Positions 6,483 to 63,382 of a stretch of 64,000 nt of DNA are shown in pieces (the stretch's first letter is position 1; every line of letters starts with the position of its first letter). The DNA is taken from contig OY540818.1 in the NCBI GenBank assembly GCA_961205875.1, positions 18,326,761-18,390,760 of the forward strand, given 5' to 3'. This DNA comes from Sialis fuliginosa (lineage: Eukaryota; Arthropoda; Insecta; Megaloptera; Sialidae). The notes under the pieces are model-generated. The model was given only the letters and a program-made list of their open reading frames with translations. It was not told where the DNA came from and did no database searches. Both the position numbers and the translations under genes were made by a program.

Positions 6483-7103
6483 GATGAAAACTTATTTAAT
6501 TATGATATTTAAAAAAATTACACTTTAAATGCCCCACCCTGTATGTAAAAACAAAACTAATTAAGAAATTTAGCGAAATTAATTTTTTCGAGAAATAAGA
6601 AAAACAAAAATTTACCATTTTCTCGAGAAGGAACACATACTATGAAAACATATTTAATTATGATAAAAAAATTACACTTTAAATTCCCCACCCTGTATGT
6701 AAAAACAAAATTAATTAAGAAATTTAGCGAAATTAGTTTTCTCGAGAAATAAGAAAAACAAAAATTTACCATTTTCTCGAGAAGGAACACATACTATGAA
6801 AACATATTTAATTATGATAAAAAAATTACACTTTAAATTCCCCACCCTGTATGTAAAAACAAAATTAATTAAGAAATTTAGCGAAATTAGTTTTCTCGAG
6901 AAATAAGAAAAACAAAAATTTACCATTTTCTCGAGAAGGAACACATACTATGAAAACATATTTAATTATGATAAAAAAATTACACTTTAAATTCCCCACC
7001 CTGTATGTAAAAACAAAACTAATTAAGAAATTTAGCGAAATTAATTTTCTCGATAAATAAAAAATACAAAATTTACCATTTTCTCGAGAAGAACGCATAC
7101 TAT
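6483..7103. repeat. 154-bp tandem repeat (satellite), about four units
   Basis: The anchor CCCCACCCTGTATG recurs at 6532, 6686, 6840 and 6994, exactly 154 bp apart. Units 2-4 are nearly identical and unit 1 is slightly divergent. Each unit contains paired TCTCGAGAA motifs. Three overlapping 77-84-residue minus-strand frames are by-products of the 154-bp period. Confidence 0.85.
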
Positions 7104-8329: not shown

Positions 8330-8630
8330 TAAAATCGCGCCAAGCTGAGATATTAACTATTCAATTTACTTCTTTGTTAGTTTATGAGTTTTAATTTGTT
8401 TTTAAAAAGGGAAGGAGGTCGCGAGGGTCTTTAAGTGGATGATACTCTTAAAGATAATAGTTTATGCTACATTTTAAAAAAAAATTGAGTCTGTAGGATT
8501 GCGCCAAGCTGAGTTATTAACTATTCAATTTACTTCTTTGTTAGTTTTAATTTGTTTTTAAAAAGGGAAGAAAGTCGCGAGGGTCTTTAAGTGCGTGATA
8601 CTCTTAAAGACAATAGTGTAAGCTACATGA
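8330..8630. repeat. Tandem duplication of the GCGCCAAGCTGAG repeat
   Basis: Two copies lie about 165 bp apart, starting with GCGCCAAGCTGAG at about 8337 and 8501. Both share GGTCTTTAAGTG and ACTCTTAAAGA. It is related to 4932-5090, 26740-26900 and 59040-59230. Confidence 0.65.
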
Positions 8631-11689: not shown

Positions 11690-12365
11690 TCAGCTGTTAT
11701 TTTATTGAAAAAGCAAAATTACCCCTATTGAAAAAATTCCAAAAAATTAAAAAATCAAAAATACCACTTATATTATAAAATCATTTATCATTGTATTTTT
11801 TCTATAAAATAAACCTTAAAAAATGTAATCACGTATTTTCTTGATCGATGAGGGTTTATGTGGGTTAAAAAATCACCCCAAAGGGGTTAAATCATCCCCA
11901 AAATATTAAGATGAAATTATCTTTCTGAAATTCCGAAAAAATATTTTATAAGTCATGGAAAATGTAGAATAACTATATTATATTAGTCCCGATGAGAAAA
12001 CAACCCCTACGAGGGGTAAAAACACCCTTAATCAGAAGGAGATAATGAAAAATCTTAAAAATTATAAATAAATGATTTTATAATTAGTGGTATTTTCGAT
12101 TTTTTAATATTTTGAGTTTTTTTTCAACCCCTAAATAAAAATCGGTCATTTTTTTAGTCATGGAAAATGTAGAATAACTATATTATATTAGTCCCGATGA
12201 GAAAACAACCCCTACGAGGGGTAAAACCACCCCTAATTAGAAGGAGATAATGAAAAATCTTAAAAATTATAAATAAACGATTTTATAATTAGTGGTATTT
12301 TCGATTTTTTAATATTTTGGAGTTTTTTTCAACCCCTAAATAAAAATTGGTAATTTCTTGAAATT
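11690..12365. repeat. ~205-bp tandem duplication with inverted flank
   Basis: Two near-identical units start AGTCATGGAAAATG at 11951 and 12156. Each contains CCCCTACGAGGGG, which is itself palindromic, and an AATTAGTGGTATTTTCG segment. The last segment also occurs inverted at about 11750-11785, so the block is part direct, part inverted. Confidence 0.65.
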
Positions 12366-16190: not shown

Positions 16191-16503
16191 TTTCGATAAA
16201 GTCGATGGTTGTTGTTTTTTTTTCGGCTGTAAATTACAAAAAAAACATACAACATGCCACTCGTGTGTAAAAAATACTGTACACTTTGTTTACATGCTGG
16301 TTATTGTTTTAATTTATTGTACTACATCAGTGGCGTCTTCGTTAAATTTTACGCGGGTTTTTTTAAATGGCATTCATAAATAAACTTATTTAAAATTTAA
16401 TTTTAAAATGTTTTAAAAAGTATAACAAACAACAGACAAAAACTATGGTTATGACTTATCAAATACAAATCCCCTAACCATAAAAATTGTAAGAGTTTAG
16501 ACT

Positions 16504-16538
16504 TACACGTGTTTCAATAGCAATGCTATCATCATCAG
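16504..16538 (-). ncRNA. Hammerhead-ribozyme-like core, minus strand
   Basis: On the minus strand CTGATGA (16538-16532) is followed by one T, then a stem GATAGC/GCTATT around loop ATT, then GAAAC. A perfect palindrome ACACGTGT and an A form a GUA-type cleavage triplet. Palindromic stem III is a feature of dimer-acting hammerheads in retroelements. Stem I pairing is poor, so activity is doubtful. Confidence 0.4.
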
Positions 16539-43875: not shown

Positions 43876-44559
43876 CAAAGATTATCTCATAACTTCCAAA
43901 GTAACGTAACTAGAGCAACCACAATGAGTCAGTTTCATAGGTAATTAACTAACGTATTTTTCAGTATTAGCGTTATTGCTAATCGTGTTTCCAGTTCAAA
44001 GTTATTGCTCATCAAAGTCAAAAAATATATTAATTTTTTTTGAAAATTTTATGAAAATGACATTTTTCTCCAAAAGTACTTACAATATGTGGTATTTTTT
44101 ATCATTATTTTGGTGTATCATAATATTACCTATAAATTCACCATACAACGTTTTTCCAGTTATAAATTTATCTAAATAATCCCTAAATTGACTATTTTGC
44201 TACTGTCATACAATAATTTTCGAGTAAAAAATATGGAACATCCAGAAATTTCTCTTTGGTTTGCTCCTTATAATAAAAATTGGCATTTTCAGAAAAATCT
44301 GCAACAAAAAATATAGGTTTAGATTTAAAAAAGAAATGTTGAACCTAAAAACCTCTTCAAAGTGACCTTTCTAATGCCACCCCATAATGTTAATATTTAG
44401 CCCCTTCAAAACAATGAAAATTTTATCTGAAACATTTTTGAAAATAATTTGCTGGAAAGTCTTTAAAAAAACATCCGATATTTACCTTTCGTAATATTAT
44501 AAATCAATAAGTCGGGGAATATTATTTTTAATTTATAATATTATGAATTTTCACCAAAG
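43876..44559. other. AT-rich DNA, nothing recognised
   Basis: The hydrophobic frame at 43976-44179 is not supported as a gene. Confidence 0.35.
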
Positions 44560-44640
44560 TCTTCGCGGGCCGCAAAGTAGGTACTGGCGGGCCGCATGTT
44601 GCCCGCGGGCCGTATGTTGTGCAGGCCTGCTATAGGTAAT
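44560..44640. mobile_element. hAT-type terminal fragment
   Basis: GCGGGCCGCATGTTGCCCGC followed by GGGCCGTATGTTGTG and a CAGGCCTG end resembles the G+C-rich terminus common to many animal hAT elements. The matching left end was not found, so it is a fragment. Confidence 0.45.
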
Positions 44641-45668
44641 ATAGGCAGGGGCAAAAACAATAATTAAATATTGTTTTTCGAGAAAATTATTGTAGATATA
44701 GTTTCTGTGATATTGGTTAAAAAAAACACTAGGTCACGGAAAAAAAACATAATTAGAACTATTCAAGAGAGCCACGCATCCGAATCTTCACTTTCACTAT
44801 TGTACAGACACACACACACACACAGACAGATATTAAATTTAGCATCATAAATTCATTCAATTACATAATTGGACTGCTGTTGTCCGTTTTGCATTCAGAA
44901 TTTTTATCTTTGTTATGATGAAAATCAATTTCTCTTGACGAGAATATTGTACTACTCAGTCATACGACTCATACCTCGTTTAACGTACTTTCGGAAAGGC
45001 CTCCATATACCCCATACTGTTTAAAACTAGAGTATATGGGGTAAAACCAATCAAAAATTTTCTTGGACTTGATTTTACTTTTTTAATTTTTGTTGTCTTT
45101 TTATTTATCCCAGTCTCTCGGTTTTAAGTTTTAACCCCCCCCCCCCACCCACAGTTTTCCCAGTACTGATCTAAAACAATGTTTTTCAAAAAAATTTAAA
45201 AGTTATTTTTTGCATTTTGAACGAATGTATTTAAATTAAATATCTTTCCGGTCACGACCTGCAAACTAAAAAATATAATAACCTTATTGATAATATTATC
45301 AACTAAAGTTGACCTCTGTAATAGTTTACGTAACGTTGGATGAAAGTCGGAGGTACAACTAATAAATAGAATCAAAACAATATTTTGCAAAAGTATAAAA
45401 AAAATATTTGTTTAAAAAAAATGTATTTAAAAAAAAGATTTTTGTGATCCTAGATATTATTTATATTTTCACGCTATAAGTGCGGCCCTGTGCCATCAAA
45501 TCGCGCAATTATAGAGTGAGATATAGAAAAACAAGATACGGTCTAAGACGAAATTATTTTGCAAGGTTACAGAGTTCAGTGAGATTGAAAATTTATGTAG
45601 GTATTGTCAGCATTTGGTCACGGAACAGAACCAGTACTGAATCTAGTCAGTTTCCGCCTTATTTTAAT
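44641..45668. other. AT-rich DNA with a (CA)n tract
   Basis: An (AC)n microsatellite is at about 44809-44824 and a C run at about 45137-45147. A short palindrome around ATATACCCCATAC (about 45006-45055) is also present. No gene is supported. Confidence 0.35.
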
Positions 45669-46170
45669 AGGGGCGAGGGTAAAACTTGGGCTAAAATCAC
45701 ACTTATTTATAAATATGTCGAAAATATAAAAAAAAATGGGCTTTTTAATTTTTACTGAACCGATTTTGATGAGATTTTTGCTGTTAGAAAGCCTTAGATG
45801 GGCTAGATATCACGACGTTACGGTAGAGAGAGAGGTGGAGTATGACATTAATTTTTAAGTACTTCAAAATAAAACAAAAATTCGTGAGAAATAAAAATTT
45901 AGGGGCGAGAGTAAAACTTAGTTAAAATCAAACTTATGTATAAATATGTCGAAAATGTAAAAAATAGGCTTTTTAAGTCGATGAATCGCTTTACAAGCAA
46001 TTTAATAAATTTTTATAATTTTTACTGAACCGATTTTGATGAGATTTTTGCTGTTAGAAAGCCTTAGATGGGCTAGATATCACGACGTTACGGTAGAGAG
46101 AGAGATGAAGTATGAAATTTATTTTTAAGTACTTGAAAATGAAACAAAAATTCGCGAGAAATAAATAAAA
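45669..46170. repeat. ~270-bp tandem duplication
   Basis: Two units share GGGGCGAGxGTAAAACTT-type starts and the block CGATTTTGATGAGATTTTTG (45761 and 46031), followed by CACGACGTTACGGTAGAGAG. The second unit has a short extra segment. The frame at 45480-45758 overlaps the first unit. Confidence 0.7.
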
Positions 46171-46198
46171 ACGTGGCTTACACCTAGAAACCAAGAAT

Positions 46199-47497
46199 AT
46201 ATACATTAGTTGAACTTTTTATAACTGAATATTAAACTGCCTTCTTCTATGGAAATTATATTTCTACCTAATTAATATAATACAATATAAATGTAGTTAA
46301 TTAAAATTGTTAATATGCCCCTAAAATTTACTGCTCCAGGGACTCTAGGCCCGGGCCTATTATTAGATATATAAATACTCCTATAACATAAACAACTTTT
46401 TATTATACGTATAATTAAAATTAATTGTGAACCACAACTAAACTATTTACAACAAAAAATAAAGTATATTAGCCCTATTAGATTCCTTTTTTATCTATTT
46501 AAGTACACCTCTGTATACTTCAGCGTGTAACAATTAAGATTGTGCGCAGACTACAGACTTGCTACTCACTTCAGACTTCAGTAGTATCAGTTCTTCAGCA
46601 TAGGGAAGATATGTGTTTTAAAATACTATTATAAAGATTTATGAATAAATTAAAAAAATATCGTTTAACTTTTTACAAGCATTTAGTTTTATTAGGTATA
46701 ATTCAAAAGATATTTGTTGTAAAGTTTGTGTTAATGTGTTTTGTTTATAATTAATTGTTATATTTTAAATTCAAATGTGCAACAATTAAAATTTAAATAA
46801 TAATATTATGTATTAAGGTAATAAAATAATAGTTTTGAATGAAAAACTATTTTCGTTATAAATTAATCTAGCTAGTATATTTTCTAGATATTGCATTGTA
46901 TAATATTTTTAAATTAATCTCATATACATTATTATTTATATTAAAAACTGATCTGTCTATCTAAAAGCAATATTTATAAATTCATATAATAATCATAACA
47001 TGACAAATATTTGTAAGAAAAATAAATGAAAATAATCTAATATTAAACATAATTATAGATTCGAAATTCTTACAATTAAGGGGGAGGGGGGGGGGGGGTA
47101 AAAATAAAAAATAAAATGACGTATATTAATTAGGTAGTGTATCGAGAGGGAGGCAAAGGGGAATTTGCCTCGGACGGCAGTTTGTTAGGGGCGGAAAAAA
47201 AGTTCCCAGATTCAAAAAAAGATCTTCAATTTTCATATTTAGTTAGTATTTCAAGGGGGGGGATTTGCAATTTGCAGTAGTCAAGAATTTTTTAAATTAA
47301 ATTAGATATTTATAAATCAATAAAATTAATATTGAAAAATTTTATTTCAGATAATAAAAATGCAGTTAAAATTTCATCTGAAACCGTCCATAAGTAACTA
47401 TCGCAGAAAAATAATTTTAGCAAAACCATAATAAAATAATTGTTGTATAATATGATAAAGAAGATAATATTTTTTATAAACATTTAAATGGTATAAC
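46199..47497. other. Upstream DNA of the DUF229 gene
   Basis: A less AT-rich patch at about 46520-46620 (with CACTTCAGACTTCAGTAGTA and TCAGT initiator-like words) could mark a transcription start for the + strand gene beginning at 47498. A G run is at about 47083-47097. There is no direct proof of a promoter. Confidence 0.25.
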
Positions 47498-50400
47498 ATG
47501 AATACACCTACGTTTCAACGTTCGTATGTCCGTGCTTTCACGTATTTAGGAATTGCTAGCTTCATTACGATGGTACTATACTCTAACTACCTATCTAGGG
47601 AGTACGAGGGTGAAACTGGTATTGTTAAAGAAGATGAAGAAGAACCAGGTAAATATATTATTTAAATTATTAACTACCTATAAACCATAAAAGAGAACGC
47701 CCTAGGCAAGCACCTCATCGGTGCCCCTCCTTTCCACTGTTACGTAACTTTTCATATTAAATATAACAATGAAATTTCCGAAATTCAAATATTTTCTTAT
47801 TGTTGCGTCTATATTTTGTTTGTTAAAAATTATCACATCTTTTTGTGCACACAAGAATCTTTTTATATTGTGTAAGTAGGTGCATAGGTACTTACTACTT
47901 ACTGACAGTTAAGTTTACAAATATTTCTAATTTAGTAAATTTAATTAAACAAGGGGTATGATCCAAGACTGGTGCCACTACCTAATATTATTTGTTTTCA
48001 TAAACTCTGAAGTAATAATTTTTTAACAGTCTTAAATAGGGGTAGTTACCCCCAAATGTATAAACACGTAAAAATAACCCTTAGCTATTTTCATGATCTC
48101 TAATTAAACTAATAATTATTAACTTAGGGGTAATTCTCCTAAATATACAGGGTAGTTCAATAGTGCGTCCGGCTTTCCTAGCGCACTTCCTGTAGGAGAT
48201 AGAAAAAAAAGTTTGGTACATAATATTATTGGTTTGAAAAGATCAACGTCGTAAAATTATTTTCAACAATACAGGGTGTCCCATTTTTGCGCTATAACAA
48301 AAACAAAGATTTTTTTAAATGGAATACCCTATAACGTTTTATGTCGTCCGATGTAATTTTTTAACCTCTACATTAACGTCTGTTCATTTTTTAATTTAGT
48401 GACAGTGTTGCCAAATTAAATTTTTTTTTCCGAAAAATTATCCATATTCAGGTTCAACTATAAAAAATCGTAGCGACCTCGTTTTTTTTAAAGTGATGAA
48501 TTTTTTTAGCAATAATGTTAGTCCAGGTAAAGAGTAACATTTTGGTAATAAACAATTTTAATTTAGTTCTACAGGGTGTTAATAAAAAAATGCCAAAGTT
48601 TGCAATCTTCAAAATGATAAAACTCATTTTTTTCAAATGTGACTACCCTTTTTTTATTTCACTATTTGATGGGGTTTTTTCTTCTTTTCAATTTGTATAG
48701 GAAATATCTTAGCCAAAACCCCATACTTTCTGAGATATTCAATAATTTTCACAAAAGTAACCATTTCACCATGTTTTTATGCACCGAAGTAGGCCAAACA
48801 AATGCAAAACAAATGTGAAACAATTACAAAACAAATGCCCGTGAATTGATTTGTGCTTAGATCAAAATGGAAGACATTTCGAACATTTATTGTAGTCTTT
48901 TATCTTTTATATGTATTTTCAATTTTGTTACTTGTCATAGTTTTTTGAATAAAATAAATAATTTTATTACACAAGTATTATCCGTTTTAATTATAAAATT
49001 TAATCAAATGTTACATTGATACTTAAGTACTTACATTTTTGCATTTCTTTTACATCAGCACAGCCTACTTCGGTGCATAAAACGTGGTGAAATGGTTACT
49101 TTTGTGAAAATTATTGAATATCTCAGAAAGTATGGGGTTTAGACATAAGATATTGCCTATACAAATTGAAAAGGAGAAAAAAACCCATCGAATAGTGAAA
49201 TAAAAAAAGGGTAGTCACATTTGAAAAAAATGAGTTTTATCATTTTGAAGATTGCAAACTTTGGCATTTTTTTTATTAACACCCTGTAGAACTAAATTAA
49301 AATTGTTTATTACCAAAATGTTACTCTTTACCTGGACTAACATTATTGCTAAAAAAATTCATCACTTTAAAAAAAACGAGGTCGCTACGATTTTTTATAG
49401 TTGAACCTGAATATGGATAATTTTTCGGAAAAAAATTTTTAATTTGGCAACACTGTCACTAAATTAAAAAATGAACAGACGTTAATGTAGAGGTTAAAAA
49501 ATTACATCGGACGACATAAAACGTTATAGGGTATTCCATTTAAAAAAATCTTTGTTTTTGTTATAGCGCAAAAATGGGACACCCTGTATTGTTGAAAATA
49601 ATTTTACGACGTTGGTCTTTTCAGACCAATAATATTATGTACCAAACTTTTTTTTCTATCTCCTGCAGGAAGTGCGCTAGGAAAGCCGGACGCACTATTG
49701 AACTACCCTGTATAATGGTCAAATTCAATGTTTTTCTTAATTTCAACAAAATATTGATAATGTTCAATTGTAAAGAATAGTTACAATTATTGTTAATATA
49801 AAATTATAACAAAATTTACATTTCAGTGAACAGTGGATTTCTTGTATGGAACCCGAACTGTCAGATACCTGATTTAGACGTGATGACAGGCGATGTAGTA
49901 AAACTACTAAAACCTGTGAAGTACAAATCTTGTTCTAAGCATGATCCCTTAACTTACGTCGATGTCAGCGATATGAACCCAGTCCTATTCATTGACAATG
50001 TCATGATCAATACATATGCAAATAAAAAGAAGTTATCATGTTGCTATCAGGTCGTCGGGCGAGATTGGACTGTGAAAAACGATAACAACTTTACGTAAGT
50101 TAATTAATAATAATAAAACTACTTGCCCCTGGACGCGTTGAGTCCCAACCCCTAATCGCGCCATATTTACATAGATACTCAAATGTAACCTATATAGTAT
50201 ATAAACTGACAAGATTTTACCTTTTTTCTTTTTGTCGTCATAATTATTACAAAACCCGAAGAAATTATAACAGAATCCGAAGCCCGGAGAAACGATATAT
50301 ATTATATACGTATTATTTTTATAAATTTTAAATATTTTTATTACTCCCCTGACGTATTTATTAAATAAAAATGTATGGGACTCATTACTTCGTAAGTAAT

Positions 50401-52271
50401 ATATAAGAAATACCAACATTTTTATTTTTATCTAAATCTAAGTATACAATTTAATTTTAAATAAATTCTAAATTTCTTTGATACGGTCCTGATTTTATTA
50501 TTATTTTCATATATTTCTGAAATTTTTTAGTTTTTCAAAAATTACAAAATAAAAACCACGCCCATTTCAAACATCAAAAAAAAAATACTACTTATTAAAT
50601 TTCATAACTCTTCCGTTGCAAACTTCATGCGTTACGCCACACACTTACGGCTTCTATACATTTTGTATAGAGGGTACTGCAGATTGGATGGTGCATAGAA
50701 GCCTTTAGCTTATTACATGTCAATAATAATAATAAATAAACGATTTTTTTTTAATTTCCAGTATAACAAAATGTACAAATTTCAATTCTTCAGTCACACT
50801 CGACAAAAGCACAGAATTCGTGATCACAAAATGCTACAGAGGTACCGAAAAGAAACCAATTTACAGTAACGGACATACTATAATCCTCCCGAAACCGGAA
50901 GTGACCGAACGTTTAGAAACGTTCAAAGAAAAGGACATAGAAAAACCTCTCAGCGTATTAATGATCGGTATAGACAGCATATCAAGACTAAACCTATACC
51001 GTATAATGCCTAACACTGCGGCGTACCTGAACGCTATGAACTGGATAGAGCTCAAAGGATACAACAAGATCGACGACAATACGTTCCCTAACTTGATGGC
51101 GATCCTTACAGGGCATAACCTAGCCAGAAGTCAGCACATATGCAACTCGAAAACGGGCGAACTCGAGAAATGTGATTTCATGTGGTACAAATACAGAAAG
51201 TACGGGTACGTAACAGCTTACGCGGAAGATGAAACAATCCTATCGACGTTCAACTACGAGAAGAAAGGGTTTTATAACTCCCCTACCGATTATTACTACA
51301 GGCCATTTGCTCTTGCGACCGAAAAACATTTAGAGCTACAGAAACAAAACGGTTTAACATACTGCGTCGGTCCGGTTTCCGCCGGAGAAAGGATTCTAGA
51401 TTACGCACATCAGTTCGTCGACACGTACAAAAACGAACCGTTCTTTGGGCTATTCTGGATGAACAGTTTCAGCCACAATGACTTAAATACTGCATCGGGA
51501 ATGGACTTGAAAATGAAGAAGTGGTTAGATAAATTAGAATACACTGGAGTGTTAAATTCTTCTATGGTTATATTCTTGAGCGATCACGGATTACGATTCG
51601 GAAAAATCAGAGAAACTATAACCGGATGGTTAGAAGAACGATTGCCATTTATTTATATCTGGTTACCTCCGTGGTTTATAAACAAATACCCGCATATCTA
51701 CCGGAACATTTTATTGAATAGAAACCGTCTGACGAATCCATACGATCTCCACATGACTCTACAAGATGTAATGGTCCTATCGGGACGTTTAAAAGAACCG
51801 GTGCAAAGTTCCGCTTGTTCTAAATGTTCAAGTTTGTTTAAACTCGCGAGCAATAAGCGGTCTTGCAATGAAGCAGCGATAAACCCACATTGGTGCACTT
51901 GTTACGGTTTTATCAAAACGAACAAGAAGGACAATATTGTTAGTGCTAGTGCTGCTTCAATAATAACGGAAATGGAGAGGTTATTGGGCAGTAACAGTAC
52001 TATTAGACCTCTGTGTTCGACGTTACACTTGAAGCAGATAATTGACGCGAGGGTTTCGTCTTCGAAGTCTAATTTGAATGAGACGCATTACTTGCTAGTG
52101 ATAGAAACGTCGCCTGGGAATGCTAAGTTCGAGGCGACGGTGGCTTATACGTATTTAAACTCGCATCAGTTTCAGATCAAGGGTTCTATAAGTAGGATTA
52201 ACGCTTACGGGAAGCAGAGCAATTGTATTCACGATTCGGAACTGAGGAAGTATTGTTACTGTTTAAAATAA
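47498..52271 (+). CDS. DUF229 family type II membrane protein (3 exons)
   Basis: Exons are 47498-47648, 49827-50094 and 50762-52271. The joined frame is 1929 bases, encoding 642 residues, and all junctions are GT-AG with matching phase. Residues 14-29 form a signal-anchor helix, so the rest should be lumenal or extracellular. The catalytic-like domain contains MIGIDSISR (D about 211), DNTFPN (T about 247, where phosphodiesterase relatives carry their nucleophile), SFSHND (about 375-380) and LSDHGLRFG (D about 414), then GWLEERLP. A Cys-rich stretch (CSKCSSLF...CTCYGF) follows. These are features of the alkaline-phosphatase/sulfatase-like DUF229 family, expanded in insects and nematodes. Substrate is unknown. 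Length is normal for the family. Intron 1 holds a 1.57-kb foldback element and the coding sequence is intact. Confidence 0.93.
47690..47870. mobile_element. Inverted fragment of the 10423-11218 hAT element
   Basis: It runs from GCCCTAGGCAAGCACCTCAT to TTTTTGTGCACACAAGAAT, the reverse complement of about 11032-11200. It lies in intron 1 of the DUF229 gene. Terminal CAGAGGCGG ends are missing. Confidence 0.65.
48146..49712. mobile_element. 1.57-kb foldback element in DUF229 intron 1
   Basis: Arms of about 648 bp (48146-48793 and 49063-49712) are near-perfect reverse complements around a 269-bp AT-rich spacer. Termini are TACAGGGTAGTTCAATAGTG and its complement, with TA on both sides, consistent with a TA target. 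Each arm also carries internal ACAGGGTGT words typical of compound MITEs. The frames at 48454-48700 are by-products. Confidence 0.85.
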
Positions 52272-52295
52272 TAATTATATTAGAGAGAATGTTAT

Positions 52296-52301
52296 AATAA
52301 A
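52296..52301 (+). terminator. Polyadenylation signal of the DUF229 gene
   Basis: AATAAA lies 25 bases after the TAA stop at 52269-52271. Confidence 0.7.
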
Positions 52302-52380
52302 TGCCAATAACGATTTTGTGATACTTATATAGTAGGTAGGTTTAATTTTAATAGATCTGTAATTATCGGATAGTTCTAAG

Positions 52381-53059
52381 CAGGGACTTGAACTCAGTGG
52401 CGTAGCAAATGTAATTGGCGCAAAATTTAAAAAAATAATAATAATTCTGAATTGAAATTGACAACTAAAAAAAAAGTCTTCAATTTGTGTTTTACCTAAC
52501 CTTATTTATTAAATAAAATTATAAATTCAAATTGCCACGACCAAAAAAAAACAAAAAAGGTCTTCGGTTGCCTATTCTGGCCTTTGGTCCTTAGTAAATT
52601 GGGTCCAAAAGGTTGGTCTTCAGGATCATTTGGCGCCCGGGGCATAATAGACCGCCTTGCCCCCCACCCCCTCGCTACGCCACTGCTTGAACCTGAATCC
52701 GAAAAAAAACTTATTTTTCATTAACCTGAACCCGAATTGAACCGCTATATTTTAAAGTCAACGAACCCGAACCTTTTCATGGATAATCGGTAACCATATA
52801 TTTTTAAAAGGTTCAATAAATTTTTTTTTTATATTTTAATATTTTTCTCCAATAATTTTTACGAGATTTAAAAATTTTGAAAAATAATAAAATGAATTTT
52901 ATTTTTTGCCTTTTTTCTAGCAATATTTTAATGTTTTTTCCTTCTTCAGAAAGTGTTTCATTTGTTAATTAAAATTTTTTTTCCAAAAAAAATTTTCTTT
53001 CAATTAAAAACTTGAACCCAAACAAAATAACGATAAATAAATTCCGGTTCAAGTCCCTG
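52381..53059. mobile_element. CAGGGACTTGAAC inverted-repeat element with insertion
   Basis: CAGGGACTTGAAC at the left is complemented by GTTCAAGTCCCTG at the right. The interior repeats GAACCCGAA-type words. A second element (52395-52685) is inserted just inside the left terminus. A related composition is found at 20450-20760. Confidence 0.6.
52395..52685. mobile_element. Nested hAT-type MITE, CAGTGGCGTAGC ends
   Basis: It begins CAGTGGCGTAGC and ends GCTACGCCACTG. The flanking 8-mers are CTTGAACT (52387-52394) and CTTGAACC (52686-52693), an 8-bp TSD with one mismatch. CAG/CTG ends with an 8-bp TSD indicate hAT. Confidence 0.75.
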
Positions 53060-53924
53060 GCTTACGAGTTATGTATTTTTTATTTCAAACGTACAAATTA
53101 TTTAGTAAAGTGTTTTTCAAATTGCGACCAATTCTTTAATGTTCTATTTAATTACTGTATTAGTAAAAAAATTAACAAATACATTTTTTTTTGCTGAATT
53201 TTGTTTTAGAACCACTGCACATGGAAAAATATCTATAAGACTATATTTATTTTTAATAAGCATACCTAAAATCTTCAAAACCAAAAAAATAGTGCAGTGC
53301 TGAAAACATTTTGAAAAACACTGATTTAATAATATATTTTTAATGATACATAGGAACCATAAATTATTAAAACAGTATTTAAATACAATTTGTGATAATT
53401 TAATTTCTTTATTTATATAAATAATAAACGTTTTTAAGGCACTTATAAAAATTTAAATAATTAAATAAATTTAGATTTTTATCAGGATGTCATGAGTAGA
53501 AAATATTTCAAAGTTTATAATGTTAACGTCTGTAGTAACTTTTTTACTTATTTAGTCAAAATTCTGCTAATACATATCTTTAAAAAAGGAAGCAGTACCC
53601 TTTATATGTACATATTAATTTAATTCTCATTAGGAAAGTACATATAATTTTATATACATATAATATTAATAAGTATATTGATTTTATTTTGTTAAAAAGT
53701 TTATAATACTAATTAGAAATAATTATTGAAGACTAGACGTATATATATATATATATATTACCTGATTAACATATATCGTCCCTTACAAGCAGAACTGTCA
53801 CAATTAATATACAAGTACCAAGTACTTGGTGAAAGTACTTTACATTCGTTAAAATCTAATATTAAATTTAAGTATATACATAATATGAAAATTTTAAATG
53901 TTAAGTACCTATTTTAAGTACTTT
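53060..53924. other. AT-rich DNA between convergent genes
   Basis: An (AT)n microsatellite is at about 53740-53759. Frames here are chance. Confidence 0.4.
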
Positions 53925-54520
53925 ACTTGTACAAATTAAGTATTACATTCAAAAAGTAGTTGAAGTAATAAGTACTTTTTACTATTTTTTAAATGTACTT
54001 GACGTAAAGTATACTTTAATATCAAAAAATACTTGAAATAACTTTTCAAATATAAAAATGTACTTGTAGTATATTTTCAAGTATCAAAATGCACTTGAAG
54101 TACTTTTTTAAGTATAAGAATATACTTGAAGTACTTTTTCAAGTATCAAAATGCACTTGAAGTACTTTTTTAAGTATCAAAAAGTACTTGTATTTTTTTT
54201 CAAGTATCAAAATGTACTTGAAGTACTTTTTAAGTATCAAATGCACTTGAAGTACTTTTTCAAGTATCAAAAAATACTTGAAGTACTTTTTCAAGTATCA
54301 AAATGTACTTGAAGTATTTTTTCAAATATCAAAATGTACTTGAAGTACTTTTTCAAGTATCAAAATGTACTTGAAGTACTTTTTCAAGTATAAAAATGCA
54401 CTTGAAGTACTTTTTTAAGTATCAAAAAGTACTTGAATTTTTTTTTCAAATATCTAAAAGTACTTGAAGTACTTTATAAATATTAAAAATTACTTAAAGT
54501 ACTTTTTCAAGTATTCTACT
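53925..54520. repeat. ~31-bp minisatellite of AAGTACTT palindromes
   Basis: About 15 imperfect units of the form TCAAGTATCAAAATGTACTT then GAAGTACTTTT are present. Each unit contains the self-complementary AAGTACTT or CAAGTACTTG, so the array is both tandem and palindromic. Units are best ordered in the middle and decay at both ends. Confidence 0.8.
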
Positions 54521-55320
54521 TGAAATATTGGCAATTCTGCATACAAGGCAGAGTATCATAAGCGTTATTACGATATTTTGTAGGGGACGATATGAACTAT
54601 TAAAATACCAGAGCTACATTTTGTCGATTTTTGTGGAGTTGATGATTTTTGCTTCTGAACAGATTTTACTTATACGAAAATAAAGAAAAATTTAATCCTT
54701 GATTTAAAACATTTCTTTTTGCGAAGAATTAAATTTTTTATCGGACAAAATTTTACTTATTTGGTTTCAGTTTTCCATCGTTGCAAATATTAAATTAATA
54801 AATTACAAATCGAGGGTTAAAAAAATAAGCTTCAGCTATTAAAAATACTCGTATAATTAAATCATGTTTCGTATATGTATTACTTATTAATTGACCCCTT
54901 ACACTGTGATAAACTATTACCCCCTCCCCTAATTTTTCAATCAAAATAAAATTTTTGTTCCCCTCTGCAAAGTGAATTAAAAATTAAAATGTATATACCT
55001 ATATATTTGGTTATTAATAATTTACACCCTAACCTGCTCTAATTGTTTTATGCAGGAGCACCCGCAGAAAATTTTTCAAGGGGGGGACGCTTGTAGACAA
55101 ATAATTTTATATTATTTACAAGAATTTCTTAATAATTATTTCAGTGTAAAGGGTTTACCGTTTTCTTTTTAAATTTGATTATAGTATTTAGGTGTTTACT
55201 TACATTTTACATTGTCGTAATATAGAACTATTGTTAATTGTTATAATTTGGAACAAATTGTTTTTTTCATTGTATAGTATTTTTAGAAATTTTATATACA
55301 CGTAATGTTCGAACTATATA
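54521..55320. other. AT-rich DNA, nothing recognised
   Basis: No gene or repeat was supported. Confidence 0.4.
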
Positions 55321-55721
55321 TACAGTGTATTCCAAGTTGATTAAGCCATAGGAAATTTAACATGGGGACAATTAGAAATGCTGTAGTAACCTTTGATCGA
55401 ATTTAATGATGTGTGATTGGTGCATTTTGAAATGCCGCCACAAAATTTAGTAAAATTGTCATTAGTATTTTGTTTTCAATTTTATATCTGCCAAAAAATA
55501 TTATTATAATTTTATCTAGGATGCTTACTTTAATTTCATTAATGTATTTTATTCTTTATTAAAGTTGAAAACAAAATACTGTTGATTAATTTAAAATTTA
55601 TCAGTTAGTTTCGAGGCGGCATTTCAAAATGCACCAATCACACATTGTTAAATTTGACCAACATTTCTAATTGTCCCCATGTTAAATTTCCTATGGTTTA
55701 ATCAACTTGGAATACACTGTA
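55321..55721. mobile_element. MITE with TACAGTGTATTCCAAGTTG ends, copy 2
   Basis: It has the same termini and flanking TA as 24433-24822, and is 401 bp long because of small internal insertions. Confidence 0.8.
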
Positions 55722-57060
55722 TAAGCTATATACATATTATAATTATTATGGATATAACAAAATATTTTATTATTAAATAATACAAATATACATTTTTATA
55801 TAAAAATTATGCCCAACCTAATATGTTCGTCAATGTAGTTCTCTATTTAATTTAATGTTTCATAAAATGCAGTAGATATTGGCATAGTATTAGACAATTT
55901 TAATGCCTGATTTTACAAACGATAGTTACCGTATTCATAGTTATCACTGACTTGAAGATAGTAACAAATATAGGCACCGACCATATCTAATCTATGGCGG
56001 TATTTTGATAAGAGAGGGGGGGGGGGGTATTTAAAAAAAAACGACGATTTTAGCTTAAAATTTCAGTAACAAAAAAAACAGCTTGGAGCTGAGAGTCTAA
56101 ACTTTTTAATATTTGAATATTTCACATTTTTGGGGAGAAATAATTTTTTTCTTTTTTATTTAAAATTATAAAATGGCTATCATTTATGAAACTGGGCATA
56201 AAATTCTTAAGCACAATAATTATAAACAAAATATACAACGGCAAATGCGTATCTATACATTTAAGATGGGACCCTCTAAAAAAATAAGGTGGTGACTAAA
56301 AAAATCAATTTAAAATTTTGAAATCGGAGAATATTTTTTTTGTCTCAATCTGAAACGATCACAAAGCTTTTCGTATCTTCGATATTGCGAGGAAGCAAAA
56401 ATGTTTACCTTGACGCCACTGTCTTCGCAGATGATAACATGATCGATTGTATTCCAAAAAACTGTATACTACAATTAATAAAAAGAAAAAACAACTGAAA
56501 ATAAAAAGTAATAATAATAATTCATATTTTCAAAACAAATATACATAGATATATACATACATTATAATATATTAAAATATACAATATTTTTTCAAATAGT
56601 TTACACAGTATTAAATGTCTAAATATATATAAAAAAATATAGGTGCTATTATAGCATATATTTATTTTTAAATATAATTTCAAAATGCAATAAATATTTT
56701 TTTACATCTTATAAAAAATATTCATTTTCACTAATGACTGGATTTATTTTCTTCATATATATCTGACGAAAAATACGTATAGAACATTTTTTATAAACAA
56801 TTTAACTAGCTTTAATTTAATATACAACTATTTTTTCTGTAACGTTGAAAGAAAGGCTAGAAATCGGCAAAAACTGTTTTTTGTTCTTTACTCCATTCCA
56901 GTGGGGGTAAACTTCAGGATTTATTTTTTCAGACGAAAAATATGTACAGAACATTTTTTGTAGAGAATTGAATTATAATTATTTTAGTTGAAAAATCTTT
57001 TTTTTGTCCTCTACCCCACTCCGGATTTCTTACAAAAAAAAATCCAGTCAAAACTATTTC
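55722..57060. other. AT-rich DNA with a repeat fragment
   Basis: A G run is at about 56013-56022. About 56320-56400 matches the TGCTTCCTCG element end (CTTCGATATTGCGAGGAAGC). No gene is supported. Confidence 0.4.
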
Positions 57061-57095
57061 GTAAATTTTTCGAACTTTGCGTCTGGCCTATAAAG

Positions 57096-57139
57096 ACTCC
57101 TGATGAGGACTTCTTGTAAAGTCGAAACACATGTCGAGT
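57096..57139 (+). ncRNA. Hammerhead ribozyme motif, unit 1
   Basis: Stem I ACTC (57096-57099) pairs with GAGT (57136-57139). CTGATGA lies at 57100-57106. Stem II GACTT (57108-57112) pairs with AAGTC (57119-57123), after one unpaired G. GAAAC follows (57124-57128), then ACATGTC, giving a GUC triplet with predicted cleavage after C57135. Stem III is very short, as reported for Penelope-type hammerheads that act as dimers. Confidence 0.65.
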
Positions 57140-57251
57140 TTTACTACAGTTTCTCATTTTCCTTACTACTTTCTACCCAAATTTACGTTATCTATGGATT
57201 AATCCACAGATAACGTAAATTTTTCCAACTTTGCGTCTGGCCTATAAAGAC

Positions 57252-57291
57252 TCCTGATGAGGACTTCTTGTAAAGTCGAAACACGTCGATT
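57252..57291 (+). ncRNA. Hammerhead ribozyme motif, unit 2
   Basis: CTGATGA (57254-57260), stem II GACTT/AAGTC (57262-57266, 57273-57277) and GAAAC (57278-57282) match unit 1. The stem III/cleavage region is ACGTC, two bases shorter, with the predicted site after C57287. Stem I (CTC against GAT) has weaker pairing than in unit 1. Confidence 0.55.
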
Positions 57292-57441
57292 TTTACATTC
57301 ATTTTCCTTACTACTTTCTACCCGATTATCTATGGATTAATCCAGTAATGAGCAAGTCATATATGCTATCGTAGCACCAAAAAATAAATATAAAAGTGAT
57401 ATATCCTAACAAAAAAAAAATTCAACCGTCATAAAATTTCA

Positions 57442-60400
57442 TCAAGTGCTTTCTGTAGATCTACTATTTCTAATAAGGGTTAAATAAACTGCATTCTTAT
57501 GACTCCTTGCTTCATTTATTTTCCCTTTTCTTCCCCCACTTTTACTCAATAGATCTCTACGAGTCTCGTCAATAATCATTAAAGTTTCTTCAGACGTTGG
57601 TTCCGAATGGCGTAACCCATTAATATTATCGTAAAAACAGCTACAAGCGCCTGTACAATCGCATTCGACTGATTGCTTTCTATAATTGATCCGTGGATAC
57701 TTCGCCTTTACGAATAAATTGTCGAAGAACAATCTCATACTTTTATAATCTTTGAAAGACCGGTCGAACATTTTTAAATCTCCGTCAGATAAGTAAACGT
57801 GGGAAGATTCGTTATTATTTTGATATGTGATGTTAGGTGATGGGGTTTTTTCGGTGGGGTTGAGAATATCGTCTTCTGATCGGCAACGACGTAAGTTTTT
57901 ACTCGTGAGTGAATCGTTGTTAAGCGATATCCAGGTATTAGGGGTACGGCTATGTTCTTCTAAATTTACTGGAAAACAATATTTATAATTGTCGTTTTCG
58001 TATGAAATTCAAATGTAGGTATATCTAAATTAATACTGAATGGCACTATTTGTTGTATGTTTTTTTTTTTTTTGTATAGGATCTAACCCTCTGTCACTTT
58101 GAAAGAATAATATTTTTTTTTTTTTTTTTTTAAACCGAGGTGAGCCGACTAAAATATAAAAATCAGTGTTGAATCCAGGGTAGATGAATTTAATTCATAA
58201 ATGAATTTTTCAAAAATTCAATTTCTCGATATCTTGAAAAATGAGAAAAACAAAATTTGCCTTTTTCTCGATAAAAAGTTTATAAGAAGGGGCACTATTT
58301 AAACCATATTTACATTTTACGTGTTACACATCTTTATTCAACCTTTTCAAAATTTAAAAACCGTATTTTTCTTCAAAATTTTGTCAAAAAAAATCGAAAA
58401 CACAAAATTTTGGGGTAATATTTCATGCATCAAACTTCAAACTTAAAGATCAGAAAATAAGAAGGGAAATATTAAAATATCCTCTATTAATACCAGAATA
58501 AATTTTATTATTTTTTGCCCGGCCCTGACTTCAACAACATATCAATGAAAAATGCTCTGTAGGTAACAAAGAGTTAAATTATCTTTATTAATTTCATAAA
58601 TATACGTAACTTTAGTTTATACTGTACGATAAGTCAATTATTATTATTACAATCACTGATGTTTTTAATAATTTATATGAGATTGTTGAAGGTTCCTTCT
58701 GAATCCCGTGTTGTTATATTTTCATCAGTTGTCAATTCTGCCAGCAACAAAAATAATATCATTTATTAGTTTTCAAAATAATCAAAGTTGACCGATTTCA
58801 GGGCGTTTTATCTCAATAACAGCAAAATATATTTAAATGAGGTTAAGTTTAAATTATAGTGCAGTTAATGAGCTTTAAAATGATATATAACACTTCAAGA
58901 TTCATATTGTTAATATATATAAAATTACCTGTCGAAGTTAGTTTGGTAAAAAGTTTCAAAAGATAATACCAAAGATGGGCGGAGCTACAGTTCAACTGTC
59001 ATTTTAACCCGCCAGTGGTGGCGTGAAAAATTCTCACGTCAAAATTTGTTAATTTATCAATTTTTATACGGACGGTCTTAGGGCATTTGATAGTCTTAAA
59101 ATTAATGATGTAAGCTATATTTAAAAAAAAGTTGGAGTCTGTAGGATCGCGCCAAGTTGAGATATTAACTATTAATTTTTTTAGAGGAAGAGAGGGCGGA
59201 AAAATAAATCTCGCCCAGGACACCAGACTTGCTAAGGCCGGCTCTGTATACAACACAAAAATTATGAACATAGTAGAGGGTTTGAATAATTAATTAATTC
59301 AATATCTAAGATAAGAGATAATACACCACGTTTCTGTGATAAACTCAAACTAATTAATGTCAGCTGTTTAACATGATTCAATTTGAAGGTAGACTGGCGT
59401 ATAAGAAATAAATTCATTGTTGGGTCAGATTGACCACAAATCTCCACTGGCAGGTTAAATAATAATCATTTTCTGAAAATCAAATTGCTAAACGAAATTT
59501 TAATTGTGTATATTAATACATATTTTTATATCAAGTTTTTTAATTTAATTAAAATTCGTTTGTTGTAATTTTCATAACCTACAATTAAAACGTCAAATAT
59601 GGAATCAGAATATATAGAGAAAAAGCAATTTTAAATTATGTTAACTGTATTTGTTATAGATTTCTCTGCTTCCTTTTTTTACATTTACTTTTACTTTCCT
59701 AAAATGAATTAATAAAAAAAAAATAACATCATAAACATATTGAATTCAAAAAGTACTCACCGTACGACGAAGTATTTGATTCAGACAATGAAAATGCAAC
59801 CATGAGTTTATTTTCACTGTATCCTTCTGAATTGTATACATCCGAGTCCGGGGTAGACGCATTAAGGTAAGGAGGTGGCGGTGACTCTGGAATCGACGCA
59901 GTCTGACACCCACGACTCGTGCTAGCTTGGACGATATTAATTACCGGCCGTAACATACCAGAATCTGTCTCGATGGTTAGATTTGGCACTGATGGTTTTG
60001 ATCTTTTGCATAATGAATTTCTGAAATTAAAAATAAATTAGGGATATACACATTTCTCAACTATATATTATATTACCTCGTGGGTACAGATTTACTTCTG
60101 CTTCGTGTAGATGTCCTTTTCTTACTGCGTCTTTGTCCGATACTCTCGTCAAAGCCTATTTTAATTATTTCATCATATTCTGGTGGTGCTTCATATACAG
60201 GAGGTTCGTCTACGTTGTCGTCATTATTCATTGACCCATCTACAAAAGTATAAAGTACTGTTAGCGAATTAATTAAAATATTATAGATCCGAATGTTACC
60301 TAAGAAATTACTAATTGTTTGAATTTGGTTTTGTAATTCTTGCTGTTCCCTGGCTCTTGCTCCCAGACGATATAAGAGTATTATTAGAACTGATATAAGG

Positions 60401-63382
60401 GCGATTAAACCTGTGAAATAAAATTATTTTATTATAATTTATAATCCAGTTGTACTTAATGTTTAGTTTGTCCTATATAAAATTTATCGCAATCTGAACA
60501 GTTGATTTAATATTAAAAGTTGATTTTTTTTTAATTCAATTTTATTTTAGGGGGAGATTTTTAACTTACCTAAGCTACAAAAAATGAATACTAATGTAGC
60601 CGTTCTTAAATCAGGGTAATCCTCCATTTTTGGGAAATAGTAGTTTGGAATATGAGAATGGGAGTACCAATGGACATCTTCATGTTCCATTTTCCAATCT
60701 ATAATCAAAACATAATAAATAAATAAATATTTAAACGTTTTATTCCACGACTCAATTACCTGTATTGCATGAATCAGGTTCATCGCTGCTATCTCCGCAA
60801 TTGTCAAATCCATCGCACTGGAGTTGCATAGATACACATCGATGGTTCCGGCATAAGTAATTTGAATCAGTGAAACAATCTGGAAAGGAAATTGAAGACT
60901 TTAGCTTCAGGACAAAAATCGTAGTGGTTTTTAATTTACAAACCTTTATAAGTAAAAGAAGCATATACGATTGCTAAACGTGATTTTATATTGAACGTTC
61001 CTTTTAATGATACATAAAACCCAACGTTTATAGGAACAACGTGCTCAATTTTGTTTGCTTCGTTTATTTGTGTTTTAGAACTTTGCAACGTTTCTAAAGC
61101 AGTTTTATCAGATGTTATTCCTTTGTGGATTTTTAGTTTAGCGTTTCCTGTAAATATAAATAAAGTGTCATTGAAATTGTTAGGTTATGTTTACATCATA
61201 ATGAAAAATTTTACATAAAAAAACATGCATCAAGTTTTAACTTACAAAATATTCATTTAATAACAAAAATCTTCAAACAATCAAAACAAATGAAGAACAT
61301 ATTTAAATATTTGTACATTAATGTTAAAATCTCCATACTCTGTATATTAAAATAATATATACGTATATACTTCAACTCATTATTGATTATACAGAAGCAA
61401 CAACTGTTATTACTCAAATTACTGTTGATTTTTATTTAATTATTTATAAAAAGCAAAATAGCATAAATCGCACCTATTTCTTCGAATGTTGCAACTTTAA
61501 GATACAAATGTGTTTTTAAAAGATAATTTTTTGGTGGACGAATTATCCAGATGCAATCGTAAACCCGAGTCCCTTGATCTATCATATTCATCATTGTTAT
61601 TGCTCCCCCTAAATTTTCTACAAGTCCACCGCAATCTGTTGTAGGTGGCTTTGTATTATTATTTGACAGATATAAATAGTTTGCTTTATATCCAAATCCA
61701 GTTCCTCCGTTTGCGTAGAAACGTATAAGTAAAGATGGCCCAGAACTAGTTATTATTCGTGGTCTGAATATCGCTCCATTTGTTATGTCTAATCTGTCCC
61801 CATTCCAATCGTAAAACTATGAATTAAAATAAGAGTTAGGTTAAATTATATTTACATTTATTTTAAACATTTTACGTACTTCTATAACTGATATCGTACT
61901 GATTTGAAAATCAGTAAAAATAACACGTATTTGACAATTGGTGTTTTTATCGACGTCACAAATTATTATATGTTCAATTGTCAAATCTCTTGGGTACAAT
62001 GCAGGGAAAAAAGGGGAATGTAAAACCTCACCAGAAATATTTTGTGGTATTCCACTCGGTTGACCTTTGTAAAATTCACGATTACCTAAAATTAAAAATT
62101 AAATAATAAACCAGGAAAAAATGAATCCAAGTAGATTTGGATATATGTATAAATCCAATTTGATCTAATCAGATCCAGTCAGATCTACATAGATCTGATG
62201 TCATACTCGACCAAGTATGTCTAGATCTGATTAGATCCAATTTGATCTAATTAGATCTGAATACATCAAACTTCGTATCCAGTCAGATCTGCTTGGATCA
62301 GATTAGATCAACTTAATCTGATGTCACACTAGATTAAGTATATCTAGATCTGATTAGATCCAATTTGATCTAATTAGATCTGAATAGATCAAACTTTGTA
62401 TCCAGTTAGATCTGCTTGCATTAGATTAGATCTACTTAGATCTGATGTCATATGAAATATGTTTAGATCTGATTGGATCCAATTTTTGGCTTAATTTGAT
62501 CTAATTAGATCTGAATAGATCAAGCTTTGTATCCAATCAGATCTGCTTGGATCAGATTAGATCTACTTTGGTCCAATTTGATCTAATGTTTGTAATTATG
62601 TAATTATTATAAAGTCTTACGTTCTGTTGTATATTCTAGAGTAAATGCCCCTGTATGATTCTGGCTGTACAAAAACGATATAATAATATTTCGAGTCTGG
62701 CTACGATACGTCATGCTTGGGAACTCTGAAATTCCACAGAAAAGATCTTCGGAATCATTTTCAAAAGCTGGTTCCGATATCCATATATAGTCACATTCAC
62801 ATGTATTGTTTTTATTTGGGATGATTTGATCACACTGTTTAGGTATTTTGATTTTTCTAAAAATTGAATTTTAATGTATTGTAAATGATATATATATATA
62901 TATAATTAACGGCTGATTAATTATAATACCTAAATATGACAGATATAATACAAGAAGGGCATGTTACAAGTTCTAAAGTGCAGTGCGAATGCACTGTAAT
63001 ATTAGTTTTTGAGTAGCGTCTTCCTTTTATAGTGTATCTATCAATGAATTGTGTAACATTAGAACTGATGAAACCTTTTTCTCCGGGTTCGATATACAAA
63101 CGACGATCATTGAGGCCATTGCAGACATCGATTTGTTTTATATTATTACGGTTATGGAGTTTTATTGATGTTGAGATTGTTATTAATATTGTAATAACAA
63201 TTAAAGTATACTTTATATCTGAAATTAATTAATTTTAACTATTAAATTAATTAAAGTGGGGGGTTTTCAAGGTCTAATAATATGACTTAAATATCAGCTT
63301 AGAGAAATTATATAATTATAACAACAATTAAAATTTGAATTTAGTAAAAATATTAACACTTACCTAAATATTGTAAACTCAT
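57442..63382 (-). CDS. Culd: CUB/LDLa single-pass membrane protein, Culd-like (12 exons)
   Basis: Exons (transcript order) are 63382-63364, 63218-62930, 62856-62621, 62085-61880, 61816-61474, 61147-60944, 60879-60760, 60698-60570, 60410-60300, 60239-60077, 60020-59761 and 57968-57442. All splices are GT-AG with closing phase, giving 2607 bases and 868 residues. Residues 12-21 are a signal-peptide core. Divergent CUB modules span about 40-432 (CDYIWISEP; SPFFPALYPRDL...YDWNGDRLDI; DCGGLVENLGG...YDCIWIIRPP). An LDLa module follows at 433-472 (CDGFDNCGDSSDE), then a helix at about 507-529 and a 339-residue tail. The tail has PPVY (565-568), PPEY (571-574), PPPY (655-658) and a basic RRSKKR patch. 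Drosophila Culd is known for rhodopsin/TRPL endocytic traffic. Neto shares the CUB-LDLa-TM order, but these CUBs are much more divergent. Confidence 0.8.
59040..59250. repeat. Composite dispersed repeat in the last intron
   Basis: An inverted copy of the 26600-26900 composite (GATCGCGCCAAGTTGAGATA; CTCGCCCAGGACACCAGACT) lies within the 1.8-kb intron between exons 11 and 12 of the CUB/LDLa gene. Confidence 0.6.
62120..62590. repeat. ~121-bp AGATCTGATTAGATC tandem array in intron 3
   Basis: About 3.8 units share TAGATCTGATTAGATCCAAT (starting near 62221, 62343 and 62464) and GATCTGATGTCATA. Each unit is itself built from shorter GATCTGATTAGATC-like words, so it is a two-level repeat. It lies wholly between exons 3 and 4. 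Confidence 0.8.

Follow-up and report, generated by a model that had tools for sequence, protein, structure and literature searches.

A tandem pair of hammerhead motifs in Sialis fuliginosa and its relatives in two families of Penelope-like elements

In the 64,000-nucleotide stretch of Sialis fuliginosa DNA analysed here (the window), two direct units with a spacing of 154 bp can be read off the plus strand at 57064-57371, each with the letters of a hammerhead ribozyme core. To judge from its sequence the pair is a hammerhead by descent, because the core has 1,965 matches in the genome, against none for a reversed control, and larger copies carry an upstream frame with reverse transcriptase (RT) and GIY-YIG domains. 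The window pair is real in ancestry and ordinary in kind. Its relatives matter more: they form two families of Penelope-like elements (PLEs) in which the catalytic letters are kept and both stems have been rewritten compensatorily, and the double-hammerhead dimer is the minimum-energy (MFE) fold in family 2 and nearly so in family 1. A review describes the role of the hammerhead in PLEs as unknown (PMC7761336), and the two natural sequence sets provided by families 1 and 2 make it testable. The count of one tail per insertion is moreover a quantitative constraint on PLE insertion, a process whose later steps are described as yet to be validated (PMC11167929).

The paired units of the window

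Alignment of the units with each other places unit 1 at 57061..57214 (plus strand, 154 bp) and unit 2 at 57215..57345 (plus strand), the latter shortened relative to unit 1 by deletions that affect stem III, the stretch following stem I and the spacer. An earlier note on this DNA, made from the letters alone, had assigned CTGATGA, a 5-bp stem II, GAAAC and GTC to each unit, and reading confirms the positions. The unit 1 hammerhead (57093..57142, plus strand), delimited by sequence and folding, has CTGATGA at 57100-57106, GACTT at 57108-57112, AAGTC at 57119-57123, GAAAC at 57124-57128 and GTC at 57133-57135; its stem I is AAGACTC/GAGTTTT, its stem II GACTT/AAGTC and its stem III loop ACAT. Stem I abuts the cleavage site with four Watson-Crick pairs (ACTC/GAGT), as had been stated, and comes to seven pairs when the outer A-U, A-U and G-U are counted; an extra G between CTGATGA and stem II was absent from that earlier account. 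In unit 2 the same elements start at 57254 (CTGATGA), 57262 (GACTT), 57273 (AAGTC) and 57278 (GAAAC), with GTC at 57285-57287. They belong to a hammerhead remnant (57247..57294, plus strand), again delimited by sequence and folding, in which the catalytic letters are kept, the stem III loop is 2 nt, two stem III bases being gone, and stem I is mismatched with the loss of one pair. The GTC triplets end at C57135 and C57287, and the predicted cut sites lie after C57135 in unit 1 and, nominally, after C57287 in unit 2; the 5' ends 57136 and 57288 had thus been correctly predicted.

In neither unit is the hammerhead the MFE fold. It reaches -5.8 kcal/mol against -10.1 in unit 1 and -1.9 against -11.5 in unit 2, and the transcript of 57064-57345, folded as a whole, shows no hammerhead at its MFE. 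For this reason, and because unit 2 is damaged, the phrase 'two intact cores' used by the earlier note is overdrawn: unit 1 can indeed form stem I, but stems I and III of unit 2 are impaired. Rfam, which had been proposed as a check, gave no match at the gathering cut-off in the whole window. When 601 bases were searched, RF00163 found unit 1 at 22.1 bits, below the cut-off of 34 (E 0.0086), and no match to unit 2 was listed. The model was absent at E<=1 from all six family-1 loci searched; at E<=10 it matched one of five further loci (L003, 23.2 bits) and none of three family-2 loci. The hammerheads of PLEs are characterised in the literature as minimal forms of type I (PMC7761336, PMC6155905), and the features of type I (CUGANGA, GAAA, NUH, and stems I and II) are present in unit 1, in family 1 and in family 2. 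A loose hammerhead pattern run over the whole window had two matches, at unit 1 and at 16500-16538, against 0.13 expected from shuffles, and did not match unit 2.

A CACGTG palindrome common in the relatives reads CACATG in unit 1 and is deleted in unit 2. Because of these changes unit 1 would be at most a weak monomer cutter and unit 2 is probably dead, and we infer that the units of the window are inactive at present. CACATG is found in 5 of 60 family-1 sequences too, and is therefore no speciality of the window.

Other tandem repeats in the window lie at 6484-7103 (154 bp, four copies), 8337-8628 (156 bp) and 11943-12356 (205 bp). These 154-, 156- and 205-bp repeats were set aside as retrozyme candidates, no CTGATGA..GAAAC being seen by eye in the portions of their consensus units that were read. 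On the plus strand a DUF229 frame (50736-52271, E 1.7e-137), with a weak sulfatase match, ends 4.8 kb upstream of the hammerheads.

Two families of Penelope-like elements

With up to three mismatches allowed, the 29-letter core of family 1 has 982 + 983 = 1,965 matches in the 392-Mb genome, the window pair counted in, and the reversed pattern, used as control, has none. A 29-letter flank of family 1 has 2,069 matches, so the core is no better kept than its flank. In a DNA search in which 40 of 271 candidates were scored, the best core match elsewhere had an E value of 1.2e-13 over 46 nt, and matches to the window pair, itself aside, were limited to the core and its immediate edges. Larger family-1 copies have an open frame directly upstream of the core, and among such frames two matched RVT_1 (E 1.2e-12 and 2.6e-12) and two GIY-YIG, at E values of 0.0039 and 0.0058, which are below Pfam's cut-off. 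RT and GIY-YIG stand in one frame, as is typical of PLEs: at L090 a 462-aa open frame matches both PF00078 (E 1.2e-12) and PF01541 (E 0.0039, the latter below Pfam's cut-off). The family-1 core starts 68-78 nt past a fixed point near the frame end (17 rows, 14 distinct places), and so some 50 nt beyond the stop of the RT/GIY-YIG frame. By the domains of its frames, family 1 is a PLE, and the link to Penelope drawn by the earlier note is borne out by the occurrence of the same core about 50 nt 3' of an RT and GIY-YIG frame elsewhere in the genome.

The window itself holds a copy of a second family. A pattern scan and genome matches identify a 5'-truncated PLE family 2 copy at 16421..16538 (minus strand), in which the arm and tail of family 2 follow the core at 16500-16538. 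By eye, the word TATACTTTTT flanks this minus-strand copy on both sides and overlaps the end of the tail. The family-2 core has 464 + 505 = 969 matches in the genome and none in the control, and at two junctions that were fetched and read it is found on the 3' side of a second PLE frame, whose amino-acid identity to that of family 1 is 53-55% at these two junctions and about 53-56% over the C-terminus.

The catalytic letters are identical in families 1 and 2, CTGATGA is separated from stem II by one extra base in each, and GAAACACGTGT is present in the common form of both. The stems were compared in 60 distinct family-1 and 15 distinct family-2 sequences, picked by similarity to each core, a choice that leaves the contrast between families unbiased. 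In this single contrast of two families, the commonest pairs of stems I and II differ on both sides at six of ten positions, on one side at two, and are unchanged at two. Conservation within a family is biased by the gathering of sequences by core similarity, and is to be read accordingly: at the sixth pair of stem II, family 1 has C-G in 41 of 60 sequences and C-A in 19; each of the three inner pairs of stem I is present in 38-47 of 60 family-1 and 11-12 of 15 family-2 sequences; and an unchanged CACGTG is seen in 43 of 60 and in 10 of 15, respectively. As a comparative argument, the compensated stems between the families speak strongly for the minimal type I hammerhead being genuine.

Cofolding of a pair of family-2 copies gave an MFE structure identical to the double hammerhead, its stem III having 8 pairs, and a family-1 pair gave the double hammerhead with two extra pairs inside each core; the cofold of window unit 1 did not have the double hammerhead as its MFE structure. 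The monomer hammerhead was not the MFE fold in the single arm folded for each family. The energy gained on dimerization was reached by 54 of 200 shuffles for family 1, 32 of 200 for family 2 and 105 of 200 for unit 1; it is unexceptional, and the shape of the fold alone is therefore used as evidence. The parent hammerhead would cut best as a dimer, two copies sharing the CACGTG palindrome as an 8-pair stem III, and on these models both families would be catalytic and would make use of the dimer. The transcript of a palindromic copy folds into one long hairpin (-172 and -174 kcal/mol, one copy per family), which would hide its hammerhead. For a PLE of Anolis, it has been reported that the hammerhead does not cut without protein and that insertion is possible without the hammerhead (PMC11167929).

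A canonical stem II pattern found six places, all family 1 by eye. A relaxed pattern had 120 matches, against five in the control, and about nine-tenths of the 100 listed were by eye family 1 with a changed stem II; this pattern is incapable of finding family 2. Five PLE stretches examined by eye as candidates for a third family (L105-L109) all resembled family 1 or family 2. Neither viral contigs, scanned for exact matches, nor the PDB, searched by sequence with the PLE frame, gave any hit, NCBIfam returned distant RT families alone, far below cut-off, and no publication was found that joins hammerhead ribozyme, Penelope and Lepidoptera.

Origin of the tandem pair

We consider it likely that the window pair is a decayed family-1 PLE fragment with a minimal type I hammerhead, duplicated head-to-tail with unique DNA. 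A PLE fragment would have decayed and suffered internal deletion at the window site, and would later have been duplicated head-to-tail together with adjacent unique DNA to give the two 154-bp units. The local duplication is suggested by a single-copy spacer and by a second locus, L096, that has been duplicated together with its unique flank. The 107 nt between the window cores match this locus alone in 392 Mb (very common words skipped), as does, in a DNA search, a 44-bp near-perfect palindrome within the spacer (57179..57222); a 31-letter pattern from the upstream part of the unit matches the two units alone in the genome. At L096 (contig 2, 3067900-3069000) a family-1 copy is repeated head-to-tail at 153 bp with its neighbouring flank, a 28-letter word of which occurs twice in the genome, both times at this locus; it is the sole same-strand pair among L001-L096, the window aside. 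Since no target-site duplication was found at the window element, where the longest shared word is a run-of-A 11-mer, the local origin of the duplication is something that we infer.

On the 3' side of the unit 1 core, ACTACAGTTTCTCATTTTCC at 57143..57162 (plus strand) is weakly similar to the family-1 PLE tail. Its score of 13.5 was reached by 9 of 500 shuffles, or by 17 of 1000 when a single reference arm was used, and among up to 400 75-mers drawn at random from the window 27 scored at least 12; the resemblance is suggestive only. The upstream part of the window unit could not be aligned to family 1 above chance (493 of 500 shuffles reach the score). Visual inspection of the open frames of 44000-62000, eight of which were run against Pfam, revealed no RT frame. 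On these results the window copy itself lacks the RT/GIY-YIG frame, the target-site duplication and the multicopy pLTR of a PLE, and is classed as a PLE-derived fragment, not as a PLE.

The earlier note had seen in the pair a solo end in tandem terminal repeats. In such a reading the whole 154-bp unit is the pLTR and the pair a lone tandem end of a separate low-copy PLE family, which would accord with the tandem minimal hammerheads known in PLEs (PMC7761336) and with a GTCTGG block that lies upstream of the core in the same register as in family 1, albeit with an upstream score not above chance. We regard it as unlikely: the spacer and the upstream part are confined to a single locus, with no second spacer locus in 392 Mb (very common words skipped), L096 was duplicated with a unique flank, and both detected PLE families have different flanks. 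The period of 154 bp, the two copies and the type I motif also recall the metazoan non-LTR retrozymes, in which a tandem repeat of 150-450 bp yields a transcript that is cut by its hammerheads to give circular RNA, and whose monomers are described as 150-450 bp in length, with dimers upward and a low GC content (PMC7229834). Retrozyme repeats are, however, described as multicopy (PMC7229834) and the window sequence is found at a single locus, its motif has hardly any stem III, as in the minimal PLE kind (PMC7761336, PMC6155905), and unit 2 is damaged; a retrozyme origin is accordingly a good deal less probable still. That the repeat resembles a hammerhead by chance, with no ribozyme ancestry, might be argued from the score below Rfam's cut-off and from the hammerhead not being the MFE fold, but is strongly disfavoured and has only a very slight probability in view of the 1,965 related cores against none in the control, the linkage to PLE frames and the compensated stems in a second PLE family.

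The hammerheads lie some 150 bp past the point where the nearest long frame (57442..58008, minus strand; no Pfam match) stops, a position that could suggest a domesticated ribozyme that processes transcripts of a neighbouring gene. The earlier note took this frame, which ends in a stop at 57442, as the last exon of a 'CUB/LDLa gene'. Pfam supports the LDLa part of that name through a frame at 60752..60973 (minus strand; PF00057, E 1.3e-6), the sole match among seven minus-strand frames, and CUB domains were not found in these seven; that the LDLa frame and the frame ending at 57442 make up one gene is the assumption of that note. Its suggestion that transcripts reading through from this gene could be cut is ruled out, because the gene frames read along the minus strand and the hammerheads along the plus strand. 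Cutting would be limited to antisense RNA or some other transcript of the plus strand, the window units look decayed, and we find domestication barely credible.

Insertion pattern and likeness to known elements

Family-1 loci are mostly palindromic, with two inverted arms, the hammerheads facing outward, and a tail of about 36 bp that is not always present. In a sample of 73 loci, comprising 40 contig-1 places from the core-match list and 33 others, two arms were recognisable in 49. The tail was present at exactly one end in 45 of these 49 and at neither end in four; none had it at both. Under independent ends 24.3 one-tailed copies of 49 would be expected (binomial p 3e-10). Flanking repeats of at least 9 bp were present in 34 of the 49, against 7 of 295 in a mismatched-flank control, and their commonest length was 12. 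Family 1 thus shows the short target-site duplications, inverted or tandem pLTRs and optional tail of a PLE. Two arms were seen in 12 of 16 family-2 loci, all 12 with one tail, and 11 of the 12 had flanking repeats of 8-17 bp, the control being for family 1 only. Over both families, 57 of the 61 two-armed copies examined have the tail at exactly one end and none at both ends.

In Anolis, the tail is bounded by the two sites at which the PLE enzyme starts, and both strands are extended (PMC11167929). From these two start sites and the one-tail-per-copy count we suppose that each cut end of one insertion uses a different start site. We tentatively propose, as a possibility that we hold to be less than even, that in both families a palindromic insertion consists of two converging reverse transcripts, one per start site and cut DNA end, and that the hammerhead serves as a dimer of template RNAs. 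In a two-subunit enzyme the use of the two start sites would be asymmetric, one per cut end, and the subunits would together hold the two template RNAs of the hammerhead dimer. Against asymmetric use, the two strands did not differ in start site with the Anolis enzyme in vitro (PMC11167929). The palindromes may also come from self-priming, which has been discussed for other PLEs (PMC3846280), or their centres may have been lost after insertion.

The nearest known relatives are the PLE minimal type I hammerheads (Cervera & de la Pena 2014; Lunse et al. 2017; via PMC7761336 and PMC6155905). The window pair and both families share with these the catalytic letters and a near-absent helix III, and families 1 and 2 likewise have a place beside an RT/GIY-YIG frame and the dimer-forming palindrome; the window copy differs in being a decayed, single-locus, 154-bp tandem with a unique spacer. 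The one extra base before stem II in families 1 and 2 may be a further difference. The Poseidon/PAc element of Anolis (Frangieh et al. 2024, PMC11167929) also has an RT and GIY-YIG frame, a hammerhead, and an optional tail between two RT start sites. Its hammerhead spans the start of the ORF, whereas here the hammerhead was seen 3' of the ORF end, and, unlike PAc, many copies here are short palindromes with inverted arms. The Penelope families of Adineta vaga (PMC3846280) share inverted pLTRs and short target-site duplications (8-10 bp in A. vaga), together with a 31-bp tail optionally present at one inverted pLTR, which resembles the optional tail described here; a structure of this kind is therefore already known. 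In contrast to A. vaga, many copies in Sialis are short and palindromic and the commonest flanking repeat is 12 bp, and the word 'hammerhead' is absent from the main text of that report. Metazoan non-LTR retrozymes (PMC7229834) have in common with the window pair short tandem units, a type I hammerhead and AT-rich sequence, but are multicopy, with canonical hammerheads and circular RNAs, whereas the window locus is lone and its motif minimal.

Elsewhere in the genome, five PLE matches of equal score lie about 7.4 kb apart on contig 10 (3223624-3253527), and this series is perhaps a tandem array that holds a broken PLE piece.
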